NCBI GenBank assembly: GCA_003553485.1
Contig: PWEJ01000072.1
Span: forward strand, 1-64,000
Source: Halanaerobiaceae bacterium
Lineage (GTDB): Bacteria > Bacillota > Halanaerobiia > Halanaerobiales > Halarsenatibacteraceae
DNA: 64,000 nucleotides
Direction of reading: 5' to 3'
Below are positions 36-43,042 of the stretch, piece by piece. A program made the position numbers and the translations under genes. How positions within the stretch are numbered: position 1 is the first letter of the stretch; the number at the start of each line of letters is the position of its first letter. The notes under the pieces are model-generated. The model was not told where the DNA came from. It worked only from the letters and a program-made list of their open reading frames with translations, and made no database searches.

Positions 36-1196
36 TTGGGTAATTTATATACCACCTCTAAAAGTCTAGGCAATAGCAATATGCTTGATATTTTCAAAAC
101 AATACATATTGAAAAAGAGATTTCCAGGGTAGAACTAGTTGACAAAACCTGTTATAGCCCAGGTACTATTTCGAATCATGTCACCACTTTGCTGGATAAA
201 GAACTAATCCTGGAACAAAAGAAAGGTATTTCCCAGGGAGGAAGAAAACCGATTTATTTAAAAGTAAATGCTCATAAACATTTTATTTTAGCTGTTAAAA
301 TTGAAGTTAAAAAAGTCTCCCTCTATCTATTAGATCTAGATCTTAATGTGGTGGAATTAGTTGAAAAACAGGATAATAAGCCAATTTCTTATGAAAATTG
401 CTTAAATTTTCTAAGTACTAATATTAGTCAGATGCTAGCTAAAAGAAAAGATATAAAAGATAAGATTTTAGGTCTGGGTATATCAGTGCCAGCAATTATA
501 AATAGAGAAGAAGGTTTAATAGAAATTGCCCCTAATCTAAAATGGTATAAAAAAAGCATATTGCAAGACCTAAAAAACAAGTATGATTTTCCTTTTTATC
601 TGGAAAATGATGCCAAAGCTGGTGCCCTAGGAGAAAAAAATAGAACTAAAGGTGATACTAATAATTTTGTTTATGTTTTAATTAATGAAGGGATTGGTTG
701 TGGAATAGTTATTAATGGAGAACTATATAGGGGTAGTAATGATAATGCTGGTGAATTTGGCCATGTTAAAATTGATCCTCAAGGACCCAATTGTCATTGT
801 GGTAATTCTGGTTGCTGGGAGACTTTAGCTTCAGTAAATTATTTAGTCAATGCCTGGGAAAAACATACAGGAGAACAAAGTAATATTCAGAACATTTATA
901 AATTAGCAGTTAAAGGAAAGAAAGAGGCTTGTAGTTTATTTGGAAAACTTGGAGAAAATATTGGGGCTGGAATTGTTTCTATTATAAATGGTCTAAGTCC
1001 AGGTAAAATAATAATCAATGGTAAGATTGTTCAGGCGAAGCCCTTTATTGATAAGTCGATAACCAAAAAAGCAAAAGAAGAATCCCTTCAGGTAGCTTAT
1101 GATAATGTAAAAATTGAATATAGTAAATTATTGGATAAAGCTGAGGTTATAGGGATTGGTTATTCTATCATCGAAAGAAGTAGATTATTTCAATAA
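36..1196 (+). CDS. xylR: ROK-family transcriptional repressor, xylose regulator (XylR)
   Basis: An N-terminal winged helix-turn-helix (about residues 20-70) is followed by a ROK sugar-kinase-like domain. The ROK zinc motif is visible as C253-H-C255-G-N-S-G-C260-W-E. Length (386 aa) fits XylR/NagC-type repressors. The start is a TTG at 36, behind a GTAGGGGGA ribosome site at 22-30. It lies 36 bp upstream of xylA, and a site matching the Bacillus XylR operator lies within the same gene group at 8150-8174, so a D-xylose-responsive repressor is the best reading. Family knowledge: these repressors release DNA when the pentose binds. The exact effector is inferred from the neighbours. Confidence 0.9.
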   Translation: MGNLYTTSKSLGNSNMLDIFKTIHIEKEISRVELVDKTCYSPGTISNHVTTLLDKELILEQKKGISQGGRKPIYLKVNAHKHFILAVKIEVKKVSLYLLDLDLNVVELVEKQDNKPISYENCLNFLSTNISQMLAKRKDIKDKILGLGISVPAIINREEGLIEIAPNLKWYKKSILQDLKNKYDFPFYLENDAKAGALGEKNRTKGDTNNFVYVLINEGIGCGIVINGELYRGSNDNAGEFGHVKIDPQGPNCHCGNSGCWETLASVNYLVNAWEKHTGEQSNIQNIYKLAVKGKKEACSLFGKLGENIGAGIVSIINGLSPGKIIINGKIVQAKPFIDKSITKKAKEESLQVAYDNVKIEYSKLLDKAEVIGIGYSIIERSRLFQ

Positions 1197-1232
1197 ATAT
1201 ATAAACACTCTTTATAAAGGGGGACTGTATCA

Positions 1233-2567
1233 ATGACATATTTTGATTTCTTGGAGACTGTAGAATTTGAAGGTCCAGGTTCTAAAAATCCATTAGCCTT
1301 TAATTATTATCAGGCCGATAAGAAAATTGGAAAAAAAACTATGGCGGAACATCTTAGATTTTCAATGGCTTACTGGCATTCTCTCACTGAAGATGGTAGT
1401 GACCCCTTTGGAAATCCAACTATGGATAGGCCCTGGAATAACTATCAAGATTCAATGGATAGAGCTGAGGCAAAGGTAGAGGCGGCTTTTGAATTAATGA
1501 GCAAACTGGGGATTAATTATTTCTGTTTTCATGATGTTGATGTAGCTCCGGAAGGAGCAACAATAAAAGAAAGTAATGAGAATTTAGAAAAGATGGCTGA
1601 ACTTTTAAAGAAAAAGATGGAGGCTACCGGAATCAAACTACTTTGGGGGACTTCAAATTTGTTTAGTCATCCCATATATATGCATGGAGCTGCTACATCT
1701 CCACAGGCTAAGGTATTTGCCTGTGCAGCTGCTAAGGTCAAAAAGGCCATTGAAGTTACTAAGTATCTAGGTGGAGAAAACTATGTTTTTTGGGGTGGAC
1801 GCGAGGGATATGAAACTTTACTCAATACCAATATGAAGCTTGAGCAGGATAACTTAGCCAGGTTTTTCTACCTGGTAATAGAATATGCTGAAAAAATAGG
1901 TTTTAACGGTCAGTTTTTAATCGAACCGAAACCTAAAGAACCAACTAAACATCAATATGATTTTGATTGTGCCAGTGTTTTAGCTTTTTTGAGAAAATAT
2001 GATTTAGAAGGTTATTTTAAATTAAATATAGAAGCAAATCATGCTACTCTGGCCGGGCATACTTTTCAGCATGAATTAAGGTATGCCAGGATAAATGACA
2101 TGCTGGGTAGTGTAGATGCTAATCAAGGTGATTTGCTGCTGGGCTGGGATACAGACCAATTCCCTTCAAATTTATACAACACAAGCCTGGCCATGTATGA
2201 AGTTTTAAAGAATGGTGGTCTTGCTCCTGGAGGGTTAAATTTTGATGCTAAGGTTAGAAGAGGTTCCTATCAACTTCAGGATTTAGTTCAAGGGCATATT
2301 CTTGGTATGGATTCCTTTGCTAAAGGATTAGAAGTTGCTCACAGTTTAATAAACTCTCAAGAAATAGAGGATCTAATTTCTTCTAGATATAAAAGCTATC
2401 AGGAAGGTCTAGGTAGTAAAATAGTTGAAGAAAATACAAGTTTAGAAGAGCTAGCAGAGATTGCCCAGAGTTTTAAACTTTCCGAAATTAAAACTAATTC
2501 TGGTTCTCAAGAAAAACTGGAAGCTATACTGAATCGGCATCTGTTGGGATCTTTAAACAGTGATTAA
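1233..2567 (+). CDS. xylA: xylose isomerase
   Basis: Converts D-xylose to D-xylulose in the cytoplasm, the first step of bacterial xylose use. The 444-aa length is that of class II xylose isomerases. Visible signatures are F97-C-F-H100-D-V-D with the catalytic histidine, the [10 protein letters not shown] block near residue 187 and the [13 protein letters not shown] metal-site block near residue 231. The ATG start has an AAAGGGGG ribosome site about 9 bases upstream. It sits directly after the ROK regulator and before a pentose ABC transporter; the matching kinase xylB lies 7 kb downstream. Assignment is firm. Confidence 0.97.
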
Positions 2568-2684
2568 ATAAGGGGGTGAGACATTTTAGAAGTCAAAATT
2601 TATAGGTTTTAAGACATAAAGTTTTTACAGGAATTTTGCATTAATTATATTAAAGCAACTTTTCAAAAAATGGAGGTTAAAAAA

Positions 2685-3656
2685 ATGACAAAGAAATTTA
2701 CATTAGCTTTAGTGGTAGTAGTTGCTCTGGTAATGGTATTTTCAGCTGCAGTAGGAGTACAGGCAGAAGACGAGGATTATTTATATATCCAGGTATCAAT
2801 GCAAAGCAGGTTGGACTACTTTTATGATCATCAGATGGGCCTAGAAGTAGCTGGGGAACACATGGGTGTTGAAACCAGGTATATGGGTCCAGCAGATGCT
2901 GACTTAGCAGGTATGGCAGATACCCTAGAAGAAGCAATAGGCATGAACCCTGATGGAATTTTAGTTGTCGGTTTTGATGAAATGTTAAATCCGATTGTAG
3001 ATGATGCAGTAGAACAGGGTATACCAGTAATAACCTTGGATTCAGATCTGCCCAATTCTGATAGATTAGCCTTTGTAGGTACTGGCAATGAAGAAGCTGG
3101 CTATATGGGAGGCCAAGAGTTAGCTGAGTTGTTGGATGGCGAAGGTGAAGTAGGTATCTTAACTATTCCTGGACAGCCAAACTTAGAGGAGAGAGTTGAA
3201 GGCTATGAGAGAGCATTAGAAGAATATGATATTGAAGTAGTACAGGTATCAGATACTCAGGGAGATGAAGCAGAAGCTGCTGGAGCTGCCTCGGCAATAT
3301 TAGAAAGATTTCCGACCCTTGATGCTTTAGTTGCTGTTGAGGCTGCTGGTGGAGTAGGTGCCGCAACAGCAGTTATGGAAGCTGGCAGAATAGGTGAGGT
3401 CGAAATTATTTCAATGGATAGAGATGAAGAAACCTTGAGTTATATTTCTGATGGCATTATTACAGCCTCTTTGGCCCAGCAGACAGCATTGATGCCTTAC
3501 TATGGATTACAAATCTTGCATAATTTGAATACAGGAAATGTACCAGAAATTACTTCAGATAATGAAGCTGCCGGAGTTACTGGAGCGCCCTTGATTGTTG
3601 ATACAGGCGTTATTTTAATAGATGAAAGTAACTACCAATATTTTCAGAGAGACTAA
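2685..3656 (+). CDS. periplasmic sugar-binding protein of ABC transporter (probable xylose binding, XylF-like)
   Basis: A secreted solute-binding protein of the Peripla_BP_4/RbsB type, 323 aa. A hydrophobic signal peptide (residues 3-26) ends in an AxA-like site (GVQA before EDED), with no lipobox cysteine. The open frame begins at 2670, but its first codons contain the GGAGGT ribosome site, so the ATG at 2685 is the likely start. The mature protein is very acidic, as is usual for exported proteins of halophiles. Together with the next two genes it forms a complete sugar importer. Xylose as ligand is inferred from xylR, xylA and xylB; ribose or another pentose is possible. Confidence 0.88.
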   Translation: MTKKFTLALVVVVALVMVFSAAVGVQAEDEDYLYIQVSMQSRLDYFYDHQMGLEVAGEHMGVETRYMGPADADLAGMADTLEEAIGMNPDGILVVGFDEMLNPIVDDAVEQGIPVITLDSDLPNSDRLAFVGTGNEEAGYMGGQELAELLDGEGEVGILTIPGQPNLEERVEGYERALEEYDIEVVQVSDTQGDEAEAAGAASAILERFPTLDALVAVEAAGGVGAATAVMEAGRIGEVEIISMDRDEETLSYISDGIITASLAQQTALMPYYGLQILHNLNTGNVPEITSDNEAAGVTGAPLIVDTGVILIDESNYQYFQRD

Positions 3657-3668
3657 TTAACATTATGG

Positions 3669-3696
3669 CTGGCAGAATTATTTTTTGTTCTGCCAG
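3669..3696 (+). promoter_or_regulatory. intercistronic stem-loop between binding protein and ABC ATPase genes
   Basis: A perfect 9-bp inverted repeat (CTGGCAGAA at 3669-3677, TTCTGCCAG at 3688-3696) encloses a 10-nt loop. It starts 12 bp after the stop codon of the binding-protein gene. The bases after it are only mildly T-rich, so it may be a leaky terminator or an mRNA-stabilising hairpin that keeps binding-protein levels above those of the membrane complex. That role is known for such hairpins in other sugar transporter operons and is inferred here. Confidence 0.7.
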
Positions 3697-3727
3697 TCTT
3701 TATAAATACAAAGAAAGGAGTGATCAA

Positions 3728-5263
3728 ATGGGCCCTGCAGAACAGAGCAAGAATGAGATAGTTTTATCAGCAAGAAATGTGAGCAAAAGCTATCCCGGAG
3801 TTCAAGCCTTAAACCAGGTTGAGATGGATTTGAAAAAAGGTGAAATTCATGCTTTGGTAGGGGAGAATGGTGCTGGCAAGAGTACATTTATCCATATCCT
3901 GGGGGGGATTTGTGAGCCTGATGAATGTGAAATTATAATCAAAGAAAATCAGGTTAACGAATTCAAACCCCATTTGGCAGCAGAATATGGTATTGGTGTG
4001 GTATTTCAAGAACTGTCGCTGGTTAATAATATGACTATAGCTGAAAACATTTTTGTTAATCGACAACCAGTTGGCAAATTTGGTTTTATAGACAAAAAAA
4101 AGATGAAGACAAAAGCTTTAGAGATGTTAGATGTTTTTGATCTTGATTTTTCTCCGGATAAAATGGTTGGTTCTCTCAGCACCGGTGATAAGCAGTTAAT
4201 TGAAATTTTGAAAGCCCTTTCTAAAAATCCTGAAGTATTAATTTTAGATGAACCGACTTCCTCATTAAGTCGAGGAGAAATCAATAGACTTTTTAAACTT
4301 TTGAAACGCTTGAAAAATGAAGGAATTGCAATTATTTATATATCTCATCATTTAGAAGAAGTTTTTGATCTTTGTGATCGGGTGACAGTATTTAGAAATG
4401 GAAAATATGTAGACACAAAACTGGTGGAAAATGTAACTGAAAAAGATCTGGTAAAAATGATGGTAGGTAAAACTTTAGAAAACTTTTATATTGATTTTAA
4501 TAAAGAAAAAGGCGAAGATTATTTTGAAGTCAGCGGTTTATCTGGAGAAAAATTCAATAATATTAATTTTTCTCTAGCCCGAGGAGAAGTTTTAGGGATT
4601 TTTGGTTTAGTAGGAGCAGGTCGAACCGAGATGGCTGAAACTATTTTCGGTATAAGAAAAAGGAGAGCTGGAGAAATTTCCTTAGAGGATAATTACTTAA
4701 ATATAAACAAACCAATTGATGCGATGAAGAAGGGCATTTCATATTTAACAGAAGATAGGCATAGCAAAGGTTTAGCTTTAAATATGAATATTAAAGAAAA
4801 TATCGCTTCTTCCTCATTGGGTGAATTTGCTAAAAGCAAGCTAGGTTTACTGGCGGATAAAGAGATGAGAGATTTTAGTAAAGATATAGTGGAAAAATAT
4901 AATATTGTCACGCCAAGTATTGAAAAGAAAGTCAAAAATCTTTCGGGAGGTAATCAACAGAAAGTTTTACTGGGAAAATGGCTTGGTACTGACCCCGAAG
5001 TTATTATTGTTGACGAACCAACCAGAGGAGGGGATGTTGGGGCTAAGCAAGAGATATATAAGTATTTAGATAAAGTTAGCAAGAGTGGAATTGGGATTAT
5101 TTTGATCTCATCAGATTTGCCTGAGGTTAAAAATTTAAGTGATAGAGTTTTAATAATGAGAGAAGGGGAAATTGTCGGTTGTTTAAGTGGGGAAGAGGCA
5201 ACTAAAGAAGCTATTTTGGCTTATGCAACTGGAACTAATACTAAGTCAGGAGGTAATAAATAA
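3728..5263 (+). CDS. sugar ABC transporter ATP-binding protein (XylG/RbsA type)
   Basis: A double-nucleotide-binding-domain ATPase of the carbohydrate uptake 2 family, 511 aa. The first half has Walker A GENGAGKST and Walker B ILDEPTSSLS. The second half has the degenerate first loop GLVGAGRTE, the signature LSGGNQQK and IIVDEPTRGGDVG. An in-frame upstream extension to 3665 exists, but it would read through the intercistronic hairpin. The ATG at 3728, behind AAAGGAG, is the better start. The stop codon abuts the permease start at 5264. It powers uptake of the sugar bound by the preceding protein. Confidence 0.93.
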   Translation: MGPAEQSKNEIVLSARNVSKSYPGVQALNQVEMDLKKGEIHALVGENGAGKSTFIHILGGICEPDECEIIIKENQVNEFKPHLAAEYGIGVVFQELSLVNNMTIAENIFVNRQPVGKFGFIDKKKMKTKALEMLDVFDLDFSPDKMVGSLSTGDKQLIEILKALSKNPEVLILDEPTSSLSRGEINRLFKLLKRLKNEGIAIIYISHHLEEVFDLCDRVTVFRNGKYVDTKLVENVTEKDLVKMMVGKTLENFYIDFNKEKGEDYFEVSGLSGEKFNNINFSLARGEVLGIFGLVGAGRTEMAETIFGIRKRRAGEISLEDNYLNINKPIDAMKKGISYLTEDRHSKGLALNMNIKENIASSSLGEFAKSKLGLLADKEMRDFSKDIVEKYNIVTPSIEKKVKNLSGGNQQKVLLGKWLGTDPEVIIVDEPTRGGDVGAKQEIYKYLDKVSKSGIGIILISSDLPEVKNLSDRVLIMREGEIVGCLSGEEATKEAILAYATGTNTKSGGNK

Positions 5264-6238
5264 ATGGCTCAAAACAATGAAAAAAATCTATTGCAAAAAA
5301 TTATTGCTATGAGAGAATTTATGATAATCTTTATAATCTTAATTATCGGCTTAATTATGACTTTTGTATCCCCCCATTTTTTAACCAGTAGTAATTTAAA
5401 GGCACTGCTTTTAAGGGTATCTATAACTTCAATTTTAGCCATTGGAATGACTATTTTATTAACAGCCGGTGATTTTGATCTTTCAGTGGGTTCAGTGCTG
5501 GCATTATCAGGTGCAATAGCAGCAATTGCCCTGAGAGCTGAGGTGCCTTTGACTTTAGCCATCTTACTGGCCTTGGCTGCAGCTACTTTAGTTGGGTTAT
5601 TTAATGGAGTAGTAGTAGCAAAAGTTGGAATTAATGCTTTTATCACTACTTTAGCCACTATGATGGCTGTACGTGGTTTAGTAATGATAATTATGGGAGG
5701 AAGAAATATTGCTGGCCTACCTGAAAGTTTCACTAGAATTGGTCGTTCTTACTTTTTTAACATACAGAGCCCCATATGGATTAGTCTTATTTTGATTGTT
5801 ATTTTTGAATTTCTCCTTAGAAAAACTAAATTCTTTAGGCAAAACTATTATATTGGTGGTAATCCTCTTTCAGCGATGTTTTCCGGTATAGAAGTGCAAA
5901 AAATGAGAATATATAACTTTATGTTAACTGGTTTTTTAGCCGGATTAGCCGGGATAGTTAATACAGCTAGATTTGCAGCAGCAACAACTACAGCTGGCGA
6001 TGGTCTGGAATTACAGGTTGTAGCAGCGGTAATATTAGGAGGAGCAAGTCTAAAAGGAGGAGAAGGTACGGTTGTTGGAGCATTTTTTGGTGCTTTATTA
6101 ATGGGTTTAATTATTAACTCCTTAAATTTAATTGGCGTTGATGTTTACTGGCAGACCTTTGTTCAGGGTAGCATTTTATTGTTTGCAGTGGTAGTTGATC
6201 AGTATGGCAAGAAAAAAACATTAAGTGCATCAGCATAG
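5264..6238 (+). CDS. sugar ABC transporter permease (XylH/RbsC type)
   Basis: An inner-membrane permease of 324 aa with 8-10 hydrophobic helices, of the BPD_transp_2 family. The family signatures AGDFDLSVGSVLALSG (about residues 70-85) and AVILGGASLKGGEGT (about residues 251-265) are visible. It begins immediately after the ATPase stop codon with no gap, which implies translational coupling. With the two genes before it, this completes the importer. Substrate (probably D-xylose) is inferred from context. Confidence 0.93.
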   Translation: MAQNNEKNLLQKIIAMREFMIIFIILIIGLIMTFVSPHFLTSSNLKALLLRVSITSILAIGMTILLTAGDFDLSVGSVLALSGAIAAIALRAEVPLTLAILLALAAATLVGLFNGVVVAKVGINAFITTLATMMAVRGLVMIIMGGRNIAGLPESFTRIGRSYFFNIQSPIWISLILIVIFEFLLRKTKFFRQNYYIGGNPLSAMFSGIEVQKMRIYNFMLTGFLAGLAGIVNTARFAAATTTAGDGLELQVVAAVILGGASLKGGEGTVVGAFFGALLMGLIINSLNLIGVDVYWQTFVQGSILLFAVVVDQYGKKKTLSASA

Positions 6239-6249
6239 GAGGGTAATAA

Positions 6250-7410
6250 ATGAAGGAAATTACATCGAGAGAAAGAATAAGAATGGCTTTAGAACATAAG
6301 GAACCTGATAAAATTCCATTAGGTTTTGATGCTCATTGTTGTGGTATACACATTCAAACTTATCGAAAATTAAGAGCAGAATTAAAGCTTGAAAAGGGGA
6401 AAGCCCATGTTTCGGATCAAATTCAGCAGTTGGGTTTTCTAGATAGGGATTTTAAAAATGAAATAAAAAATGATGTAGATGGAATATTTTCTGGAGCACC
6501 AGCAGAATGGGAGTTTGATAAGAAGGATAGAGGTAAATACTGGGAATTTGAGGATGAGTTTGGTATCCGTTGGAGAATGCCCAAAGAGGGGGGTTTTTAT
6601 TTTGATATGTGGGAGCATCCCCTTAAAGATGCTGAGAGCGTTGCTGATATAGAAAATCATGAACTTTTTGACCCTCAGGACCAGGAACGTTTTCATAAAG
6701 TTAAAGATCAATTTGCTGTAGCTAGAGAATTAGGGATGGCGCCGGTATTTAACCCTAATACTGGAGGTGTTTTTGAAATGGCGCTTTGGATTAGAAGTTT
6801 TGAAGAATTTTATCAGGATATGATATTAAATCCCAAGATGGCTGAAGCTCTGTTGGATAAAGCCTTAGAATACAAAATGAAGTTCTGGGAAAAAGCTTTA
6901 GAGGTCGCCGGTGAAGATATTTTAGTTGTAGCAGAGGCCGATGATATTGCCAGCCAAAATTCACTTTTGATTTCTCCAAAAATGTATAGAAAATTTATTA
7001 AGCCCCGGCATAAAAAGCTTTTTAGTTTTATTAAAAATAAAGCAAAAAGCAAAGCGTATATTTGGTATCATAGTTGTGGTGCGGTTAAAGAGTTAATTCC
7101 AGATTTAATTGAAGAGGGAGTTGACATTATTAATCCGGTCCAACTCAGTGCAAAGGGAATGAATGCAGAAGAACTGAAAAAAGAATTTGGTAAAGACTTG
7201 GTTTTTTGGGGAGGCGGTATTGATACTCAGAAAGCACTGCCTAACTATTCTCCAGAAGAAGTTAAAGTTGAGACTAAAAGGAATATTGATAAATTAGCGC
7301 CAGGAGGTGGATTTGTTTTTGCACCGGTTCATAATGTCCAGGCAGATGTACCGCCAGAGAATTTCCTGGCCATGTTGGAGGCAGTTGAAGAGTTACAACC
7401 TGACAATTAA
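6250..7410 (+). CDS. URO-D-superfamily corrinoid-dependent methyltransferase
   Basis: A TIM-barrel protein (386 aa) of the uroporphyrinogen decarboxylase superfamily, which includes MtaA/MtbA and the O-demethylase methyltransferase MtvB. Visible features are an N-terminal ERIRMALEHKEPDKIP block, a zinc-site-like HSCG near residue 275 and a C-terminal PVHNVQADVPPENF block resembling the CHNIQxDTPPENI motif of the family. The next gene is a cognate corrinoid protein, which argues for methyl transfer and against heme synthesis. It lies 12 bp after the sugar permease, so it is co-transcribed with xylose genes. Demethylation of a methoxylated sugar or related compound is my inference; the substrate is unknown. 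Confidence 0.85.
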   Translation: MKEITSRERIRMALEHKEPDKIPLGFDAHCCGIHIQTYRKLRAELKLEKGKAHVSDQIQQLGFLDRDFKNEIKNDVDGIFSGAPAEWEFDKKDRGKYWEFEDEFGIRWRMPKEGGFYFDMWEHPLKDAESVADIENHELFDPQDQERFHKVKDQFAVARELGMAPVFNPNTGGVFEMALWIRSFEEFYQDMILNPKMAEALLDKALEYKMKFWEKALEVAGEDILVVAEADDIASQNSLLISPKMYRKFIKPRHKKLFSFIKNKAKSKAYIWYHSCGAVKELIPDLIEEGVDIINPVQLSAKGMNAEELKKEFGKDLVFWGGGIDTQKALPNYSPEEVKVETKRNIDKLAPGGGFVFAPVHNVQADVPPENFLAMLEAVEELQPDN

Positions 7411-7497
7411 GCTGAAAATAGATGTAAAAATTTATTAAATTGATTTTCAAATAACTATAATTTAATAGTTGACACTTCAAAATATGGAGGTAAAATA

Positions 7498-8130
7498 ATG
7501 GATATCTTAAATAGGATTACTGAAGATTTACAGGCAGGAAAAGCTGAAGATGTAAGAACCGGAGTTGAAAAAGCTCTGACTGAGGGGATAAGTTCAAATG
7601 AAATCCTGCATCAGGGTATGATGAAAGCTATGAATATTGTGGGAGAAAAATTTAAAAAAGATGAAATATTTGTGCCAGAAGTATTGGTAGCTGCCAGAGC
7701 TATGAAGAGTGGAATGGAAGTTTTAGAACCAGTTTTGACAGCCGACAAAGTTGATAGTGAAGGTAAAATTCTTCTAGGAACTGTTAAAGGTGATTTGCAT
7801 GATATTGGCAAAAATTTAGTAGGAATGATGCTAGAAGGTGGTGGCTTTGAGGTTGAAGATTTAGGAGTTGATGTAGAGGCTGAAGAATTTATTAATAAAT
7901 TGCGGGAGACAGAAGCTGAAGTTCTAGCCATGTCTGCACTTTTGACCACCACTATGCCGGAGATGAAAAATGTAATAGATGTTTTAAAAGAAGAGGGTCT
8001 AAGAGATAAGGTTAAAGTAATCATAGGTGGGGCTCCAGTGACAGATGATTATGCTGAACAGATTGGTGCCGATTACTATGCTCAGGACGCAGCTTCAGCT
8101 GTGGATAAAGTTAAAGAAGCTATTAAGTAA
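7498..8130 (+). CDS. methyltransferase cognate corrinoid protein (MtaC/MtvC-like)
   Basis: A 210-aa cobalamin-binding methyl carrier. An N-terminal helical cap (B12-binding 2, residues 1-85, with the NEILHQGMMKAM and FVPEVLVAARAM blocks) precedes a Rossmann-like B12 domain. The lower cobalt ligand lies in the DxHxxG motif D99-L-H101-D-I-G104, and GGAPV near residue 180 is also typical. It is preceded by GGAGGT and an ATG at 7498. It pairs with the upstream URO-D methyltransferase: the first enzyme would methylate Co(I) and a further methyltransferase would pass the methyl group to tetrahydrofolate. No such third enzyme or reductive activator is in the window. Confidence 0.93.
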   Translation: MDILNRITEDLQAGKAEDVRTGVEKALTEGISSNEILHQGMMKAMNIVGEKFKKDEIFVPEVLVAARAMKSGMEVLEPVLTADKVDSEGKILLGTVKGDLHDIGKNLVGMMLEGGGFEVEDLGVDVEAEEFINKLRETEAEVLAMSALLTTTMPEMKNVIDVLKEEGLRDKVKVIIGGAPVTDDYAEQIGADYYAQDAASAVDKVKEAIK

Positions 8131-8149
8131 TTGAATAAATTTATTGAGA

Positions 8150-8174
8150 TTAGTTTAGACTTTCCCGAAACTAA
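8150..8174. promoter_or_regulatory. XylR operator
   Basis: Half-sites TTAGTTT (8150-8156) and AAACTAA (8168-8174) form a perfect 7-bp inverted repeat around an 11-bp spacer. From established knowledge the Bacillus xyl operator has these same half-sites with the same 11-bp spacing. The site lies 20 bp after the corrinoid gene and 43 bp before the aldo/keto reductase start. It probably lets XylR control a promoter for the reductase. I found no other copy of the full site in the window; the promoter in front of xylR lies outside it. Confidence 0.8.
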
Positions 8175-8216
8175 AAACATTTTATAGATTGGTCTAGAGG
8201 TGATAGGGGGTAATCA

Positions 8217-9200
8217 ATGAATTATAGAAAATTAGGCAAAACTGATTATCAGGTAGCAGAGATTTCTTTTGGCGCCTGGGCTATTGGAGGCTCCTGGGGA
8301 GAGGTGAAGGATCAAGTCAGTAAGCAGGCATTAGAAGAGGCAATCAATCAGGGAATAAACTTTTTTGATACTGCTGATGTTTATGGGGATGGTAGAAGTG
8401 AACGCTTAATTGGAGAGTTGAAGAAAAAAACCTCTGAAAGAATATATATTGCTACCAAAGCTGGTAGAAGATTAGATCCTCATTATGCAGAAGGATATAA
8501 TCGGAAGAATCTTACCGCTTTTGTCGAGCGGAGCAGAAGAAACTTGAAGGTTGATAAAATAGATCTTTTACAGCTACACTGTCCTCCTACTGAGGTGTTT
8601 TATAACGAAGAAGTTTTTAATGTCTTAGAGGATTTTGTGGCCAAAGGAGTTATTGAACATTATGGTGTAAGTGTTGAGACAATTGAGGAAGCAAAGAAAT
8701 CTCTTGATTATGATAATTTGGCCAGTGTTATGATTATTTATAATATCTTTAGACCTAAACCAGCAGAAGAATTTTTTCAGCTAGCTAAGGAGAAAAATGT
8801 CGGCATTATAGTCAGGGTTCCCCTTGCTAGTGGTTTGCTTACCGGGAAATTTTCTGAGGATAGTGTTTTTCCTGAAGATGACCATCGTAATTTTAATAGA
8901 GAGGGAGAGGCCTTTGATAAAGGAGAAACTTTTTCTGGAGTGGATTATAAAAAAGGGCTTCAAGCTGTCAGAGAGTTACAGCAAATTAAACCAGAAGGAA
9001 TTACGATGGCGCAGTTTGCTCTAAAATGGATTCTCATGAATGAGGCTGTAAGTTGTGTGGTACCTGGAGCTAAAAATCCTCAGCAGGTGAGGGAAAATGC
9101 TGCGACTACACATCTGGATGATTTATCACCGGAGGTTATGAAAAAGGTTGATAGAATTTATGAGCAAAATATAAAAGAAGATGTTCACCATCTCTGGTGA
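8217..9200 (+). CDS. aldo/keto reductase
   Basis: An NAD(P)H-dependent oxidoreductase of 327 aa with the aldo/keto reductase TIM barrel. It begins MNYRKLGKTDYQV and contains FFDTADVYGDGRSE (catalytic Asp and Tyr, about residues 50-63), ATKAG with the catalytic lysine and LLQLHCPP near residue 121. It is most like the YghZ/Tas-type branch. An XylR operator in the upstream gap ties it to the pentose regulon. It might reduce the aldehyde product or a side product of sugar processing; the true substrate cannot be read from sequence. A terminator follows at 9314. Confidence 0.9.
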   Translation: MNYRKLGKTDYQVAEISFGAWAIGGSWGEVKDQVSKQALEEAINQGINFFDTADVYGDGRSERLIGELKKKTSERIYIATKAGRRLDPHYAEGYNRKNLTAFVERSRRNLKVDKIDLLQLHCPPTEVFYNEEVFNVLEDFVAKGVIEHYGVSVETIEEAKKSLDYDNLASVMIIYNIFRPKPAEEFFQLAKEKNVGIIVRVPLASGLLTGKFSEDSVFPEDDHRNFNREGEAFDKGETFSGVDYKKGLQAVRELQQIKPEGITMAQFALKWILMNEAVSCVVPGAKNPQQVRENAATTHLDDLSPEVMKKVDRIYEQNIKEDVHHLW

Positions 9201-9313
9201 TAATTCCCCTGCTAAAAAAATAAACTTGTCAAAATCAAGCTCATTTAATATTAAATTTAACAGAAGAAACATAAAAGAAACTCAAAGAAAAAAGTCCATA
9301 ATTCGAAGGCTTA

Positions 9314-9351
9314 TAAGTCGGAATGCAACACAAGATTCCGGCTTATTTTTT
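9314..9351 (+). terminator. rho-independent terminator after the aldo/keto reductase gene
   Basis: The stem TAAGTCGGAAT (9314-9324) pairs with ATTCCGGCTTA (9335-9345) with one G-T pair across a 10-nt loop. Six T residues follow immediately (9346-9351). It ends the transcription unit that contains the transporter, methyltransferase and reductase genes. Confidence 0.9.
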
Positions 9352-9470
9352 CATTAAGCTATCTGGAATTAAAATAGAGGTAGATAGGCCTGAACTTACC
9401 TGTAAAATTTCAATTATAATAATTCAACTTGGAGAAGGAATTACAGGAGATATGTCAAAGTAAAAGAAAG

Positions 9471-9505
9471 ACAGGGATTTTTAAATTTTACCCTGTTTTA
9501 TCTTT
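9471..9505 (+). terminator. possible weak terminator or attenuator upstream of xylB
   Basis: ACAGGG (9471-9476) pairs with CCCTGT (9491-9496) around an AT-rich 14-nt loop, followed by a T-rich tract. The stem is only 6 bp, so this is a tentative call. Confidence 0.35.
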
Positions 9506-9602
9506 TAATCTTTAATTTGCTAATTGACATAAACTGGTTTAAAAGAAAAAAGTTTTTGATTTTAATAATAGATATTCAGTTTTTAGAGGGAGGAAATTTT
9601 AC

Positions 9603-11099
9603 ATGAAATACCTAATAGGACTAGATATTGGAACCAGCGGAGTAAAGGGCCTTCTGGTCTCTAAGCAAGGGAAAATTGCAGCCAGTTTCCGCTCGGGCTA
9701 TGAGGTTCATAACCCTAAATCAGGCTGGGCCGAGCAGGATCCTGAGGACTGGTGGCAGGCCACCAGAGAAGTTTTGCAGAAACTTACTCAAAAGCTTAAA
9801 GACTCCAGCTCAGAAGTTAGCTGTATAAGTTTCTCCGGTCAGATGCATAGCTCTGTTTTTTTGGATAAAGATGACCAGGTCATTAGACCAGCCATACTCT
9901 GGAGTGATACCCGGACCAGTGATGAATGTCAGGAAATTGAAGATAAAGTTGGTGGCCGAAAAAACCTGATAAAATTAACTGGCAATAGGGCTCTGGAGGG
10001 GTTTACTGCTCCCAAAGTTCTCTGGTTGCGCAATAATGAACCTGAAAATTATGCTAAATGTCATACTCTGCTACTGCCCAAGGATTATATCAGATGGCGG
10101 TTAACTGGCCAAAAAAATATGGATTACTCAGATGCAGCTGGAACTTTAATGCTAGATGTTGCTGGAAAGCAATGGAATTCTGAGCTTTTGTCTGCTCTCC
10201 AGATAGATAAATCTATCTTACCTCCTCTTTGTGAGTCAGTCGATATTGTGGGAAAGGTAACCAAAGGAGCTGCCGAGCTAACAGGACTTAAAGAAGGGAC
10301 TCCTGTAGTGGCAGGAGGTGCCGACAATGCCTGCGGGGCAGTAGGTAGTGGGATGATAAAAGAAGGAAGAGTTATGGTGAGTGTAGGCTCTTCCGGGGTA
10401 GTGTTAGCGCCGGCGCAAAACTATCAAGCAGAGCCCGAGGGTAAATTACACTTATTTAATCATGCTGCCCCTGATAGTTATTATTATATGGGGGTTATGC
10501 TGGCAGCCGGTCAGGCTTTAAGCTGGGCTAAGAATAATATATTGCCAGAAAGCTGGAATTATGATATTTTAAATAATAGAGCCAGTCAGATATCTCCAGG
10601 TAGCGAGGGACTGATTTTTCTGCCCTATCTCTATGGAGAAAGAACTCCTCATGCTGATGCTCAAGCCAGAGGTGTATTTTTTGGTCTATCTGCTCGACAT
10701 GATAAATCTCATTTGGCCCGGAGTGTCATGGAAGGAGTAACCTTTGGTTTAAAGGATTCTCTGGAGTTGATTAAAAAACGCGGGGTTGTCATAGAAAAAG
10801 TTAGAGCAATAGGTGGAGGAGCGAAGAGTAAGGTCTGGCAACAAATCATTGCTGATATTTTCGCAGTTCCCGTTGATCTCTTAGAGATGGAAGAAGGTCC
10901 AGCCTTTGGAGCGGCAATGCTGGCCGGGGTTGGAGTGGGGATGTTTAAAGACTTTTCAGAGGTTGATAAAGAATTGATTAAAGTTAGGACAACTATCGAG
11001 CCTAAAGCAGAGAATATAGATAAGTACCACAAAAACTACCAGGTGTATAAATCATTATATCCGGCTTTGAAAGATATTTTTCCCTCTATTATTGAATAA
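9603..11099 (+). CDS. xylB: xylulokinase
   Basis: Phosphorylates D-xylulose to D-xylulose 5-phosphate with ATP, feeding the pentose phosphate pathway. It is an FGGY-family kinase of 498 aa, the usual XylB length. It begins YLIGLDIGTSGVKGLLV (phosphate 1 loop) and carries the xylulokinase hallmark SFSGQMHSSVFLD near residue 78, WSDTR near 101 and the adenosine-site AIGGGAKSKVWQQ near 402. The ATG is preceded by GAGGGAGG. Its codon use is slightly less AT-rich than the upstream genes. It completes the xylose pathway begun by xylA. Confidence 0.96.
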   Translation: MKYLIGLDIGTSGVKGLLVSKQGKIAASFRSGYEVHNPKSGWAEQDPEDWWQATREVLQKLTQKLKDSSSEVSCISFSGQMHSSVFLDKDDQVIRPAILWSDTRTSDECQEIEDKVGGRKNLIKLTGNRALEGFTAPKVLWLRNNEPENYAKCHTLLLPKDYIRWRLTGQKNMDYSDAAGTLMLDVAGKQWNSELLSALQIDKSILPPLCESVDIVGKVTKGAAELTGLKEGTPVVAGGADNACGAVGSGMIKEGRVMVSVGSSGVVLAPAQNYQAEPEGKLHLFNHAAPDSYYYMGVMLAAGQALSWAKNNILPESWNYDILNNRASQISPGSEGLIFLPYLYGERTPHADAQARGVFFGLSARHDKSHLARSVMEGVTFGLKDSLELIKKRGVVIEKVRAIGGGAKSKVWQQIIADIFAVPVDLLEMEEGPAFGAAMLAGVGVGMFKDFSEVDKELIKVRTTIEPKAENIDKYHKNYQVYKSLYPALKDIFPSIIE

Positions 11100-11182: not shown

Positions 11183-12193
11183 ATGGCGAATATGTTAGAC
11201 GTTGCTAAATTGGCTGATGTATCTCCGGCCACAGTTTCTAGAGTATTGACTAATCCAGATATTGTTTCTGATCATACCAAAGATAAAGTCTTAAAGGCCA
11301 TTGAAGAATTAAACTATAAACCAAATGTCCTGGCCAGGAATCTAAGAAAAATGGAAAATAAAAATATACTGGTTATTTTACCCGACATAACCAACACTTT
11401 TTTTTCCCAGGTATTGCGGGGAATTGACCAGGTGGCAAGTGAGAATGGTTATAGGGTCTTGCTGGCCGATACCAAAGATGAATTAGATTTAGAGCATGAA
11501 TATTTAACTTATCTGGACTTAAAAATTGCTGATGCGGCAATAATGCTTACCTCCAGAAATGTTGAAGCTATAGAAGAGTTAGCCCGGAAACACCAGATAG
11601 TACTGGCCTGTGAATATATTAAAGATTCGCAATTGCCCATGGTTTCTATAGATAATATCAAAAGTGCCTATAAAGCAACTAAACATCTAATAGATTTAGG
11701 CCACCAAAAGATTGCCCATATTTCTGGGCCCATGGATATTATTCTTAATAAAGATAGATTTGAGGGCTATAAAAAAGCACTGCTTGAGGCAAATTTAAAA
11801 TTTAATAGAGATTGGGTTAAGGAGGGCGAATATACCGTTGACTCAGGATATTCTGAAATGGAAAAACTCTTACAATTATCTGCCCCTCCTACGGCAGTCT
11901 TTGCTTCCAATGATGAGATGGCAATAGGGGCTATAAAAGCTATTAAAAATAGCAATATGAAAGTGCCTGATGATATAGCGGTGGTTGGTTTTGATGATAT
12001 TAAATGGGCTTCAATATATGAGCCCGCCCTGACTACCATCTTTCAGCCTACCTTTGAAATAGGCAAGAAAGCCATGTCAATTTTGCTGAAACTAATCAAA
12101 GAAGAAAAAGAAGATTTTCAGCTGGAACGCAAGGTATATGAAGGCGAATTGGTTGTGCGAAAAACTTGTGGAGCAAAAAACAATCGTGATTGA
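11183..12193 (+). CDS. LacI-family transcriptional regulator
   Basis: A 336-aa repressor. The N-terminal helix-turn-helix and hinge read MLDVAKLADVSPATVSRVL through ALNYKPN-like residues and end in LARNLR at about residue 55. A periplasmic-binding-protein-like sugar domain follows, with the C-terminal VVGFDDIKWASIYEP block. It lies 83 bp after xylB and 248 bp before the oxidoreductase gene. Two copies of a LacI-type palindrome in that downstream gap suggest it represses the operon starting at 12441. The effector is unknown, perhaps a sugar, polyol or its acid. Confidence 0.93.
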   Translation: MANMLDVAKLADVSPATVSRVLTNPDIVSDHTKDKVLKAIEELNYKPNVLARNLRKMENKNILVILPDITNTFFSQVLRGIDQVASENGYRVLLADTKDELDLEHEYLTYLDLKIADAAIMLTSRNVEAIEELARKHQIVLACEYIKDSQLPMVSIDNIKSAYKATKHLIDLGHQKIAHISGPMDIILNKDRFEGYKKALLEANLKFNRDWVKEGEYTVDSGYSEMEKLLQLSAPPTAVFASNDEMAIGAIKAIKNSNMKVPDDIAVVGFDDIKWASIYEPALTTIFQPTFEIGKKAMSILLKLIKEEKEDFQLERKVYEGELVVRKTCGAKNNRD

Positions 12194-12235
12194 TGGAGGA
12201 GTTTTTGCTTTTACAGCGAATATAAATAATAGCAG

Positions 12236-12249
12236 TGAAATGGATTTCA
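12236..12249. promoter_or_regulatory. LacI-family operator, upstream copy
   Basis: TGAAAT-GG-ATTTCA, a palindrome with 6-bp arms, identical over 14 bases to the copy at 12372-12385. It lies 43 bp after the LacI-type regulator gene. The two centres are 136 bp apart, close to 13 helical turns, compatible with repression by looping. Confidence 0.65.
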
Positions 12250-12370
12250 TTTTGTAAAACAATTATGGAAAGAGCCATTATTACCCTGATTTTTTATATT
12301 AAATCTTGTTTTAATCTTATGAAATAAAGCAATCAGTCTTAGAGATTTGTGCTTGTTAAGTATAATTTCA

Positions 12371-12386
12371 ATGAAATGGATTTCAT
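12371..12386. promoter_or_regulatory. LacI-family operator, promoter-proximal copy
   Basis: ATGAAAT-GG-ATTTCAT, with 7-bp arms. It begins 4 bp after a TATAAT hexamer at 12361-12366, so a repressor here would sit over the probable transcription start. The minus-35 for that hexamer is poor. The site lies 55 bp before the oxidoreductase start. Confidence 0.7.
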
Positions 12387-12440
12387 AATGACAAATAATT
12401 CTAATTATAAGAATAATAACAAAAAATGAGGAGGCCAATT

Positions 12441-13589
12441 ATGACCAAGAAAAAACTCAGGTATGGGATGGTAGGTGGCGGTCCTGGTGCCTTCATCGGC
12501 GAGGTTCACAGAAGAGCAGCAAAATTTGATGGGAAAAACATTCTTGTAGCCGGGAGTTTTTCAAGTGACTACGATAAAACTCTGGCCAAAGGTGAAGAAT
12601 TAGGTCTGGAGGAAAAAAGACTGTATAAGACTTATGAAGAAATGGCTGCCCGGGAATCTGAGCTCAAGGAGGGTATAGATTTTGTTTCCATAACGACCCC
12701 TAATCATACTCATTTTAAAATTGCCAGAGCTTTTTTAACAAGAGGAATCAGTGTCGTCTGTGATAAACCAGTAACCACCTCCAGTGCTGAAGCTGAAGAA
12801 TTATTGGAATTAGCGGAAAAACACCGGGCTTTGTTTTGTGTTACCTATACCTATTCCGGTTATCCAATGGTAAAGGAAGCTAAAGAGCTAGTAGAAAATG
12901 GTGAGTTAGGTGATATTAGAGTTATTATGGGAGAATATCCCCAGGAATGGTTAGCAGAACGAGCGGAAATGGGCGATAACAGGCAGGCTTCCTGGAGAAC
13001 CAATCCAGCTGAAGCGGGAATCTCAAATTGCATGGGAGATATTGGCAGTCATATAGAGCATACCACCAGCTATATAACTGGCTGCGAAATATCTCAGCTC
13101 AGTGCTAACTTAAATACTTTTGTTGAGGGTAGAATTCTGGATGATAATGGTCAGGTAATGATTAAATATAAAAATGGAGCTACCGGGATGTTCTGGGCCT
13201 CTCAGGTTGCAATTGGCAATGATAATGGACTAAAGGTGCGAGTTTTTGGCTCAAAGGGTTCCCTGGAATGGGAACAGGAAAATCCCAATTACCTTCACTT
13301 TACTAAACTAAATGAAGCAACAAAAATTCTCTCCCGGGGTCATGATTATCTGGGTCCTGCAGCAAAGAAAAATACTCGGATCCCTTCTGGTCATCCGGAA
13401 GGTTATTTTGAAGCCTTTGCTAATATTTATAATAACTTTAGTCAGGCCTTACTGGAAAAGAAAGAAAAAGGGAAAGTTAAGGAAGAAGACTTTGATTATC
13501 CTAAGTTAGAAGAGGGATACCGGGGAGTTAAATTTGTAGAAAAATGCGTTGAAAGTTCAAATAATGGATCTAGCTGGCTTGATTTTTAA
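12441..13589 (+). CDS. Gfo/Idh/MocA-family oxidoreductase
   Basis: An NAD(P)-dependent sugar or polyol dehydrogenase of 382 aa. The Rossmann domain shows the glycine-rich GMVGGGPGAFIG near residue 9, ITTPNHTHF (about residue 87) and VVCDKPVTTS with the catalytic lysine. A C-terminal Gfo_Idh_MocA domain follows. The open frame reaches back to 12426, but its first codons are the GAGGAGG ribosome site, so ATG 12441 is the start. With the adjacent TIM-barrel epimerase and sugar importer, it probably oxidises a cyclic polyol or sugar. Homology cannot fix the substrate. Confidence 0.92.
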   Translation: MTKKKLRYGMVGGGPGAFIGEVHRRAAKFDGKNILVAGSFSSDYDKTLAKGEELGLEEKRLYKTYEEMAARESELKEGIDFVSITTPNHTHFKIARAFLTRGISVVCDKPVTTSSAEAEELLELAEKHRALFCVTYTYSGYPMVKEAKELVENGELGDIRVIMGEYPQEWLAERAEMGDNRQASWRTNPAEAGISNCMGDIGSHIEHTTSYITGCEISQLSANLNTFVEGRILDDNGQVMIKYKNGATGMFWASQVAIGNDNGLKVRVFGSKGSLEWEQENPNYLHFTKLNEATKILSRGHDYLGPAAKKNTRIPSGHPEGYFEAFANIYNNFSQALLEKKEKGKVKEEDFDYPKLEEGYRGVKFVEKCVESSNNGSSWLDF

Positions 13590-13653
13590 AACTAATTATA
13601 AACACTTATTTAATTCTATTGAAATTCTATAAAACTAAAATGGGGGTAGAAAA

Positions 13654-14643
13654 ATGAGTAGACCGGTAACGCTTTTTACAGGTCAATGGGCTGATTTGCC
13701 CTTTGAAAAAATATGTGCCTTAGCTGAAGAAATGGGTTATGATGGTCTGGAAATTGCTGCCTGGGGAGATCACTTTAAGGCCCAGAAGGCAGTTGAGGAT
13801 CCTGAATATGTTCCTAAGAAAAAAGAAATTTTGCAAAAACATAATTTAAAATGCTGGGCAATTGGAGCTCACTTGCCAGGGCAATGTGTAGGAGCGCGTT
13901 ATGATAAAAGGTATGATGCTTTTGCGCCTGATGAACTTGCCGGTAAACCAGAAGAAATTAGAAACTGGGGAATTGAGCAGATGAAGATGCTGGCTGAAGG
14001 GGCAAATAAAATGGGTTGTCAGGTCATAACAGGTTTTACAGGTTCTCCTATCTGGAAGTTTTTGTATTCATTTCCTCCCACCAGTCAGGAAATGATTGAA
14101 AAGGCCTTTGCAGAGATTGTAGAGCTCTGGAATCCTATTCTGGATAGATTTGATAAATATGAGGTAAAATTTGCTCTAGAAGTCCATCCCACTGAAATTG
14201 CCTTTGATTATTATACTACTGAAAAACTTCTTAAAGCCTTTGACTATCGTGAAGCTTTTGGTATAAATTTTGATCCCAGTCATCTGATCTGGCAGGGCGT
14301 TGACCCTGAAGTATTTTTGCGGGATTTTGCTGACAGAATTTATCATGTCCACATGAAGGATGCAGCTGTTAACCTGGATGGGAAAGCAGGAATTCTGGCT
14401 TCTCATTTACCCTTTGGAGATTTAAGAAGAGGATGGGACTTTAGATCTTTAGGTCATGGAGATGTGGACTTTGAAGTAATTATCAGACAGTTAAATGCGA
14501 TGAATTATAACGGACCATTATCTGTTGAATGGGAAGATAGTGGTATGGACAGAATTTATGGTGCAAAGGAAGCTCTAGAATTTGTTAGAGAGATTGATTT
14601 CAAACCATCAGAACGAGCCTTTGATGAATCAATGGAGAATTAA
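13654..14643 (+). CDS. sugar phosphate isomerase/epimerase-like TIM-barrel protein
   Basis: A 329-aa AP endonuclease 2-type TIM barrel, related to IolE, hydroxypyruvate isomerase and tagatose epimerases. Metal-site residues are visible in FALEVHPTEIAFD (Glu near residue 172), INFDPSHLIWQG (His near residue 210), IYHVHMKDA (His pair near residue 231) and LSVEWED near residue 290. It starts at ATG 13654 behind TGGGGG, 64 bp after the oxidoreductase gene. The pair resembles polyol or keto-sugar interconversion modules such as inositol catabolism, but no iolB, iolC or iolD is present. Confidence 0.88.
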   Translation: MSRPVTLFTGQWADLPFEKICALAEEMGYDGLEIAAWGDHFKAQKAVEDPEYVPKKKEILQKHNLKCWAIGAHLPGQCVGARYDKRYDAFAPDELAGKPEEIRNWGIEQMKMLAEGANKMGCQVITGFTGSPIWKFLYSFPPTSQEMIEKAFAEIVELWNPILDRFDKYEVKFALEVHPTEIAFDYYTTEKLLKAFDYREAFGINFDPSHLIWQGVDPEVFLRDFADRIYHVHMKDAAVNLDGKAGILASHLPFGDLRRGWDFRSLGHGDVDFEVIIRQLNAMNYNGPLSVEWEDSGMDRIYGAKEALEFVREIDFKPSERAFDESMEN

Positions 14644-14661
14644 ATTTCTGGAGGGTATAAA

Positions 14662-16161
14662 GTGGAGGATACTTTATTAACGACTAAAAATATCTGTAAG
14701 GATTTTGGCCCGGTGAGAGTATTGGATGATATTAATTTCAATCTAAATCCTGGAGAAGTTAATGCTCTAATCGGTGAAAATGGTGCGGGGAAATCTACTT
14801 TAGTAAAGATTATCTCTGGTTACCATAAACCTACAGAAGGCAAATTATTTCTGGAGGGAGAAAAATTATCATTAGATAATATTGCTGAAGGAGAAAAAAA
14901 GGGCATAGTCATGATACATCAGGAATTGAATTTAGCTCCAGATTTAACTGTCGAGGAAAACATTTTTTTGGGTCAGGAGAAGAAGAAAGGTTATTTATTA
15001 GATGAAAAATATATGTATGATGAATGCCAGAAAATTTTAAAAGAGTTAAATTGCGATATTACTCCTAAAGAAAGAATTAAGGACTTAAGCATTTCCAATC
15101 AACAAATGGTCGAAATAGCCAAGGCTGTCAGAAAAGAAGCCAAGGTTATTATAATGGATGAACCTACATCTTCACTAACAAAAGAAGAAGTTAAAATTCT
15201 TTTTAAGTTGATCAATAAATTGAAAGGCGAAAATGTAGGGATTATCTTTATATCCCATAAACTGGATGAGGTACAAGAGATAGCTGATAAAGTGACTATA
15301 TTGCGAGATGGCAAACAGATTAAAACAGGTGCGGCAAAAGAATTCACTGAAAATCAAATGGCTAATTTGATGGTAGGTAGAGAACTTGAGGATATGTATC
15401 CTGAAAAGCCGGTCTCAGAGAATAAAAAAGTTGTTTTAGAAGCAAAAAATATCAGCGTTCCTGGCTTTGTAGATTCCGCTAGTTTTAAACTGTATGAAAA
15501 TGAAATTTTAGGCTTTGCCGGTTTAGTGGGAGCAGGAAGAACCGAACTTTTAGAAGCTGTTGTAGGACTTAGGGAGAGAACTTCGGGGCAGATATATAAA
15601 AGGGATCAGGAAATTGATGCAAGTAACTATATAAAGTCAATTGATAATAATATAGCTTATTTATCAGAGGATAGAAAAGGAAAAACACTTTTAACGAGCA
15701 AAAATCTGCCCTTTAATTTAACTCTGCTATCCCTGGAGAAATATTCAGATCCCTTTATTGATAAGAATAGAGAATTAAAAGCCTTAAAAGAGGCTGAAGA
15801 AAAGTTTGAAATCCAGATTCCTAATTACAGATTAAGAGCTGATAAATTAAGTGGTGGAAACCAGCAAAAATTAGGGGTAGCAAAATTAATGGAAGCAGAA
15901 CCGGAAATAATTATATTTGATGAACCGACCCGAGGAATTGATGTAGGAACAAAACAGCAGATGTATTCATTTATAAAAGAGCTGGTAACTAAAAAGAATA
16001 AATCCTGCATAGTAATCTCTTCAGAATTACAGGAAATTATTGGCCTGTGCACCAGGGTTATAGTTATGTGTGATGGTAAGATAACAGGAAGTTTAACAGG
16101 GGAGCAAATTAAGGAAGAGATTATTATGCAGTATGCCACAGGATTAAAGGGGGCTGTCTGA
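14662..16161 (+). CDS. sugar ABC transporter ATP-binding protein (second system)
   Basis: A two-domain ATPase of 499 aa in the carbohydrate uptake 2 family. It has Walker A GENGAGKST, the Walker B block IIMDEPTSSLTKEE, a second half starting AGLVGAGRTELLEA, signature LSGGNQQKLG and IIFDEPTRGIDVG. Translation starts at GTG 14662 behind GGAGGGT. Its TGA stop overlaps the ATG of the permease by one base, so the two are translationally coupled. It is a paralogue of the protein at 3728-5263 but clearly diverged. Confidence 0.94.
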   Translation: MEDTLLTTKNICKDFGPVRVLDDINFNLNPGEVNALIGENGAGKSTLVKIISGYHKPTEGKLFLEGEKLSLDNIAEGEKKGIVMIHQELNLAPDLTVEENIFLGQEKKKGYLLDEKYMYDECQKILKELNCDITPKERIKDLSISNQQMVEIAKAVRKEAKVIIMDEPTSSLTKEEVKILFKLINKLKGENVGIIFISHKLDEVQEIADKVTILRDGKQIKTGAAKEFTENQMANLMVGRELEDMYPEKPVSENKKVVLEAKNISVPGFVDSASFKLYENEILGFAGLVGAGRTELLEAVVGLRERTSGQIYKRDQEIDASNYIKSIDNNIAYLSEDRKGKTLLTSKNLPFNLTLLSLEKYSDPFIDKNRELKALKEAEEKFEIQIPNYRLRADKLSGGNQQKLGVAKLMEAEPEIIIFDEPTRGIDVGTKQQMYSFIKELVTKKNKSCIVISSELQEIIGLCTRVIVMCDGKITGSLTGEQIKEEIIMQYATGLKGAV

Positions 16162-17159: not shown

Positions 17160-17264
17160 AACTAATTGAGGGGAGGGATAATTAACAGTACTAAAATTTA
17201 ACTTTTCAGATTCTTATTTAAAGAACAATTTTAAATTTATTTTTTAAAAGGGGGATTATTAACG

Positions 17265-36823: not shown

Positions 36824-36856
36824 TTTAGGTCAGTCTTTTAAATGAGGTGATATACC

Positions 36857-41398: not shown

Positions 41399-41454
41399 CA
41401 GGGTAATGCAAAAGATTCATGAAAGAAGAACTTTAGCAGTTAGGAGGAAGAAAA

Positions 41455-41877: not shown

Positions 41878-41889
41878 TGAGGGATGACC

Positions 41890-43008: not shown

Positions 43009-43042
43009 CTAGCAATTGTGTGCGAAGGGGGTAAAATGCAAG

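Follow-up and report, generated by a model that had tools for sequence, protein, structure and literature searches.

Corrinoid demethylases and methylated sugars

Several described O-demethylases, namely Moorella MtvABC, OdmABCD, VdmABCD and the archaeal MtoABCD, combine an MT-I of the UroD superfamily with a separate corrinoid protein, and the gene pair considered here has the same make-up. The likeness is one of gene set and superfamily; the pair differs from these systems in that it adjoins a monosaccharide importer and pentose genes, and in that the MT-II and activase, although present in the same genome, lie outside the operon. The chloromethane dehalogenase CdmBCA is likewise built from a UroD-superfamily MT-I and a separate corrinoid protein, but it takes haloalkanes via a hydrophobic channel (PMC13222342), whereas the present pair stands in a sugar context. 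Bacterial Type 1 Mlp clusters join an MtaA-like protein to corrinoid protein and activator genes; their proteins are nearer to the CoM methyltransferases and occur with sulfur genes (PMC10418091), neither of which holds for our pair. Finally, the methylcobamide:CoM methyltransferases MtaA and MtbA and the related CmuA (TIGR01463) share a common fold with the protein studied here (4ay7 being its best match) as well as the HxC zinc residues, but the latter stays far below the cut-offs of their models, falls in a separate clade and is missing the third zinc cysteine.

Polysaccharides of plants, algae and cyanobacteria commonly contain O-methylated sugars. An aerobic cytochrome P450 is able to demethylate 6-O-methyl-galactose, taking off the methyl ether before central metabolism, with O2 being required and formaldehyde being formed. 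Such O2-dependent removal is impossible in anoxic sediment or gut, and the route proposed below would differ in being anaerobic and in yielding methyl-THF. In the literature searched no anaerobic enzyme for sugar O-demethylation was found, nor, in the open-licence literature, any paper on corrinoid demethylation of sugars. Corrinoid O-demethylases are known as a kind, and a sugar as the likely substrate class would be what is new. If true, such a demethylase would (i) close the gap in anaerobic sugar demethylation and provide anaerobes with an undescribed way to use methylated polysaccharides, (ii) give a function to widespread genes now labelled uroporphyrinogen decarboxylase and (iii) add the methyl groups of sugars to the C1 supply of acetogens.

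Genomic context of the gene pair

The window (the whole stretch of 64,000 nucleotides that was analysed) belongs to contig C45 in an assembly (2.84 Mb, 172 contigs, 98% complete) of a salt-loving, anaerobic Halanaerobiaceae bacterium. From position 36 to 11099, all on the forward strand, the order is a ROK regulator, xylA, the sugar-binding protein (SBP), ATPase and permease of a CUT2 importer, a URO-D methyltransferase, a corrinoid protein, an operator, an aldo/keto reductase (AKR) and xylB. The XylR-like regulator (36..1196; PF00480, E 1.2e-57) reached the cut-off of none of the NCBIfam equivalog models. The xylose isomerase XylA (1233..2567; TIGR02630, 701 bits, cut-off 533) and the xylulokinase XylB (9603..11099; TIGR01312, 628 bits, cut-off 380) are both well above theirs, which bears out the isomerase and kinase named in an earlier, sequence-only reading of this DNA. 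The AKR (8217..9200; PF00248, E 2.9e-67) has a 77% identical copy on another contig of the same genome, C79.

The importer is of the CUT2 (ribose) type, with an SBP (2670..3656; PF13407, E 3.7e-49), an ATPase (3665..5263; full-length matches to the RbsA, AraG and XylG models, under their cut-offs) whose true start codon may be further downstream, and a permease (5264..6238; PF02653, E 1.6e-40). The solved structures nearest to the SBP are 3g1w, the arabinose-binding protein 6sw4 and the sugar-binding proteins 2h3h/3c6q; against the XylF model it scores 38 bits, under the cut-off of 390. Its best model is that for rhizopine (75 of 420 bits), which was considered too weak for use. A further cluster for a polyol or sugar adjoins at 11183-18224; besides another CUT2 importer, the second in this region, it has a LacI regulator, a Gfo/Idh dehydrogenase and a TIM-barrel isomerase.

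Directly behind the permease stand the two genes of interest, a URO-D-superfamily protein of 386 aa (6250..7410; PF01208, E 4.8e-26), which we propose as the MT-I (sugar:corrinoid methyltransferase), and a stand-alone corrinoid (methyl-carrier) protein of 210 aa (7498..8130; PF02310, E 1.4e-29, and PF02607, E 6.8e-21). Both reading frames, their Pfam matches and their motifs agree with the earlier description, as does the position just behind the permease, with the correction that the gap is 11 bp and not 12. Each gene has a good ribosome-binding site (GGAGGG and GGAGG, respectively). Since no terminator-like site was found on the same strand between the permease and the corrinoid gene, save one weak hit within the URO-D coding sequence, a single transcript is likely. 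We gave no weight to a promoter-like TTGACA-N16-TAAAAT at 7469-7496, as it ends one base ahead of the corrinoid gene start codon and as promoter and terminator counts are at about the level of shuffled sequence. An Rfam scan of window positions 1-30000 gave zero matches.

An exact XylR-type operator, TTAGTTT-N11-AAACTAA, follows at 8150..8174 on the forward strand, just after the pair, as had been claimed. The layout is that of Bacillus xylO; an exact site occurs nowhere else in the 2.84 Mb of the genome, with about 0.04 sites expected from base composition. It lies about 20 bp 3′ of the corrinoid gene and 42 bp 5′ of the AKR start codon, so that the AKR, and perhaps xylB too, are the likely targets of XylR. 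Neither ahead of xylA nor ahead of the importer did a second good copy of the operator turn up. The suggestion that the pair itself belongs to a xylose regulon is not supported in its original form, as the operator is downstream of it and the other copies of the pair (see below) are not followed by a complete xyl gene set.

Family assignment of the two proteins

The URO-D protein is a member of its superfamily (92 bits against PF01208, gathering score 23.9) and remains far from the characterized CoM methyltransferases, with 68.6 bits against the MtaA/CmuA model TIGR01463 (cut-off 235.4) and 57.9 of 400 and 48.3 of 600 bits against the MtaA and MtbA models (NF040654 and NF041608). In a tree of 63 rows, three of them CmuA-fusion sequences that aligned poorly, all 12 TIGR01463 proteins are found across a 99/95 branch from it. 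Membership of MtaA, MtbA or CmuA was rejected on both counts, and the close grouping with methanol or methylamine enzymes that had been named as one of two observations against a sugar reading is absent. A haem-synthesis uroporphyrinogen decarboxylase was also rejected, given that the URO-D profile is matched only in part and that many paralogs reside in sugar operons. A plasmid search returned distant relatives only, CmuC among them.

The AF2 model (pLDDT 94.6) has the UroD/MtaA TIM-barrel fold; its closest solved fold is the methylcobalamin:CoM methyltransferase 4ay7, followed by UroD and then MetE, with TM of about 0.65-0.75 for the 4ay7 and UroD structures. The HSC of the MtaA zinc site is retained (H274 and C276, in the HSCG motif at 7069..7080, from alignment to the MtaA Zn ligands), and the third Zn-ligand cysteine is replaced by glycine (LAPGGGF). 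The loss of this cysteine counts against a thiol-methylating role of the MtaA type. The missing cysteine does not oppose a demethylase function, because UroD-type methyltransferases contain zinc in some O-demethylases and none in the Moorella enzyme or CdmB (PMC13222342).

In the corrinoid protein the helical cap, the B12-binding domain and the DxHxxG signature are all present, the last as DLHDIG at residues 99-104 (7792..7809) with His101 as the cobalt ligand, exactly as first read. Its closest solved structure is 1y80 (E 5e-57), and every subfamily cut-off is missed (MtgC 241.4/370, MtbC 205.4/350 and TIGR02370 206.5/215.3 bits).

Conservation of the importer and the pair

The order of importer and MT-I recurs in four Halanaerobiaceae loci, at 76-77% identity for the MT-I and 79-82% for the corrinoid protein. 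Besides the window there are three loci with the MT-I behind the same importer, in two of which the corrinoid gene is visible: a second copy in the same genome (contig C79), 76% and 79% identical and directly behind a CUT2 permease; a copy in G030, with importer and pair spread over two contigs that seem to adjoin (L124 and L046); and one in G026 (L047), where the contig ends after the URO-D gene. In another genome, G028 (L123), the importer alone is visible, as the contig ends within the permease. Thus, the pair is preserved in all three loci that have a visible downstream flank, and the sugar importer adjoins in every orthologous locus found, contrary to the concern that relatives might carry the pair away from sugar genes. 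The closest named relatives with the URO-D gene are the Halanaerobiaceae MAGs T1Sed10 and CSSed16, from sample series of soda-lake sediment. Between the C79 and G030 copies dN is about one tenth of dS, and it is far under dS wherever dS is measurable.

What follows the pair differs from locus to locus: the operator, AKR and xylB in the window; an M24 peptidase, a class II aldolase and an AraB-like kinase on C79; and another URO-D protein in G030 (L046:2376-3524), possibly a second methyltransferase for a different sugar position. Complete xylA and xylB are found beside one copy of the unit only, with fragments of xylA and an AKR at the opposite end of the C79 contig. Therefore, what is conserved is the importer together with the pair, and the xylose genes represent one downstream route among other possibilities.

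Relatives in other sugar operons

Ten URO-D matches are encoded in this genome, five of which adjoin one of its 20 CUT2-type permeases, and in the nearest supported clade a CUT2 importer stands beside six of the seven members. A 53% identical paralog on contig C37 lies in an apparent hexuronate operon (UxaA-like, UxuB-like and KDPG-aldolase-like genes). More generally, relatives at 35-53% identity are spread across the phylum in arabinose, hexuronate and other operons, several of the neighbour labels being BLAST transfers or readings of the sequence rather than matches to curated models. For instance, a relative stands beside an L-arabinose-isomerase-like (AraA) gene in L051 and L053, beside an AraB-like kinase and an aldolase in L050, and beside KDG kinase and KDPG aldolase in L089, L054 and L055; the accompanying importers are of the CUT1, CUT2 or TRAP kind. 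Many sugar pathways around one enzyme type is the pattern expected of a shared unmasking step.

Among 107 genes adjacent to the relatives in 33 loci there are 7 CUT2 and 9 BPD_transp_1 (CUT1-type) permeases, 8 CUT2 binding proteins, 6 corrinoid proteins, 4 FGGY kinases and 3 DctQ, whereas beyond 6.5 kb, 83 genes have among them four CUT2 permeases plus four binding proteins, with neither CUT1-type permeases nor corrinoid proteins among the families listed. As these outer genes still belong to sugar regions, the difference is a moderate one. Other relatives adjoin amino-acid dehydrogenases, aldehyde ferredoxin oxidoreductase, 2-keto-3-deoxygalactonokinase or unrelated genes, so that the clade as a whole need not act on sugars. 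L098, L099 and L103 form a subclade with an HCD motif, for which a separate pathway is proposed; creatininase-like and aldehyde ferredoxin oxidoreductase-like proteins occur in L098 and L099, and L099 has a TRAP importer too. On C79 two more proteins follow a second CUT2 importer. One is a distant URO-D relative whose motif reads HSD and not HSC (L009:2348-3442), the other a 432-aa protein (L009:1035-2333) that has no Pfam match and a relative on C37.

Co-occurrence with corrinoid proteins

In another reading the URO-D protein catalyses some other reaction, without methyl transfer, on a sugar or an intermediate, with the corrinoid gene its neighbour by accident. This alternative, which we regard as unlikely, could draw on the fact that most relatives, including most paralogs in the same genome, have no adjacent corrinoid gene, and on the HSD or HCD that replaces HSC in some members. 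Several observations speak against it, beginning with the retention of the pair in all three informative loci. In a sample of 398 genomes of the phylum, which are related to each other, the clade (defined at E <= 1e-70) is present in 26, every one of which has a RACo activator, as opposed to 191 of the 372 others (51%; Fisher p 7e-8, ignoring relatedness). A methyltransferase-type corrinoid protein is found in 25 of the 26 and in 84 of the 372 (23%; p 2e-14, ignoring relatedness), at a limit of E <= 1e-55 that was aimed to exclude methionine synthase and picked after the scores were viewed. Moreover, corrinoid genes share a cluster with distant relatives: directly adjoining the URO-D gene together with MT-II-like genes in L104 and L105, with RACo in L100 and with MT-II in L098. 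Given this co-occurrence and these clusters, an accidental corrinoid neighbour in the window is unlikely, and members that have none adjacent probably use a carrier encoded elsewhere.

Candidate substrates

Slightly less probable again is that the pair is a methoxy-aromatic O-demethylase of the MtvB/OdmB type, co-expressed with pentose genes since lignin ethers and xylose share a plant source. MtvB, OdmB and VdmB are indeed UroD-superfamily MT-I proteins with a separate corrinoid protein (PMC13222342; PMC8630106), and the 40% identical relative in L105 sits in a cluster of MT-II, corrinoid and MT-I genes with no adjacent importer of the CUT2 kind. On the other hand, the constant partner of the pair is a monosaccharide importer and not an aromatic transporter, enzymes for arabinose and hexuronates accompany the relatives, and the orthologous loci come from lake-sediment Halanaerobiaceae MAGs, which would not appear to be an obvious lignin habitat. 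Another donor such as methanol, methylamine or betaine, with the pair merely sharing a promoter with the xyl genes, is improbable: the MtgC and MtbC models are the closest to the corrinoid protein, but their cut-offs are missed (241 of 370 and 205 of 350 bits), separate dimethylamine and trimethylamine/betaine-type enzymes are encoded in the genome, some with their own corrinoid proteins, and the methanol and amine MT-I enzymes known so far belong to families other than URO-D.

We consider, then, that the pair probably supplies the substrate-specific part of a corrinoid O-demethylase, one that acts on a methylated sugar or a close derivative. The core of the original idea, removal of a methyl group from a sugar, is thereby supported by the relatives in sugar operons and by the corrinoid co-occurrence; its exact substrate is not. 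Sequence does not separate xylose from other pentoses, nor a methyl ether from a methyl glycoside, and any single named sugar is clearly less probable than the general reading. At this locus an O-methyl pentose is the most likely class.

From ecology, rather than sequence, 3-O-methylxylose is a plausible guess. Among the sugars in the calcium spirulan of Arthrospira are 3-O-methylxylose, O-methyl rhamnoses and uronic acids (PMC8004682), soda lakes are where Arthrospira reaches its highest abundance (PMC8700078), and in a Spirulina digester inoculated with soda-lake sediment about 15% of the binned community belonged to Halanaerobiales (PMC4475827); the coincidence of the three makes this sugar a sensible candidate. 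For the hexuronate paralog on C37, the 4-O-methylglucuronate of plant xylan would fit. With a little less than even confidence, we extend the proposal to a large UroD-type clade of anaerobic Bacillota and relatives, which might carry out corrinoid-dependent cleavage of methyl ethers on imported sugars and sugar acids, each paralog serving a different sugar pathway, thus coupling methylated-glycan catabolism to the Wood-Ljungdahl pathway, with soda-lake substrates that would include 3-O-methylxylose from Arthrospira polysaccharide.

Proposed route and C1 metabolism

In the route that we infer, the CUT2 importer would take up the methylated sugar, and the URO-D protein would demethylate it, with the Co(I) corrinoid that the partner binds through His101 as the methyl acceptor. 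From there the methyl group would go to tetrahydrofolate by way of a methyl-THF transferase encoded elsewhere in the genome, and a RACo-type activase would re-reduce the cobalt. The released pentose could enter XylA and XylB, and the methyl group acetyl-CoA synthase or oxidation. A methyl-tetrahydrofolate methyltransferase and a reductive activator, which the sequence-only reading had suggested looking for, are present in trans to the pair: the genome has three MT-II (Pterin_bind) and two RACo, along with ACS/CODH subunits and FTHFS. Contig C163 encodes an AcsV-like activator, MT-II and AcsB/C/D, and contig C87 an activator, formate-THF ligase, a methylene-THF-reductase-like protein and MT-II, so that a sugar-derived methyl group could reach methyl-THF and acetyl-CoA.

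Other C1 and redox genes were observed in the same genome. Genes for dimethylamine and probably trimethylamine methyltransferases, split into two ORFs (L057:1802-3178 and L056:8162-9688, 12752-14131; contigs C171 and C90), adjoin corrinoid proteins in what looks like a pyrrolysine methylamine system in a member of the Halanaerobiaceae. In the window, the minus-strand gene for formate dehydrogenase alpha (20380-23385) is broken by a TGA in frame where Sec usually stands (HCARL*HSSTV). A short GC-rich hairpin comes after this codon, and the product is probably a selenocysteine enzyme, accompanied by FdhE (23507-24367) and by an Fe-S subunit (19640-20380). Further along, at 34874-43723, large Fe-S/FAD proteins, one of 649 aa and the other, a double flavoprotein fusion, of 1513 aa, together with an FrhB-like protein make up a heterodisulfide-reductase-like electron module.
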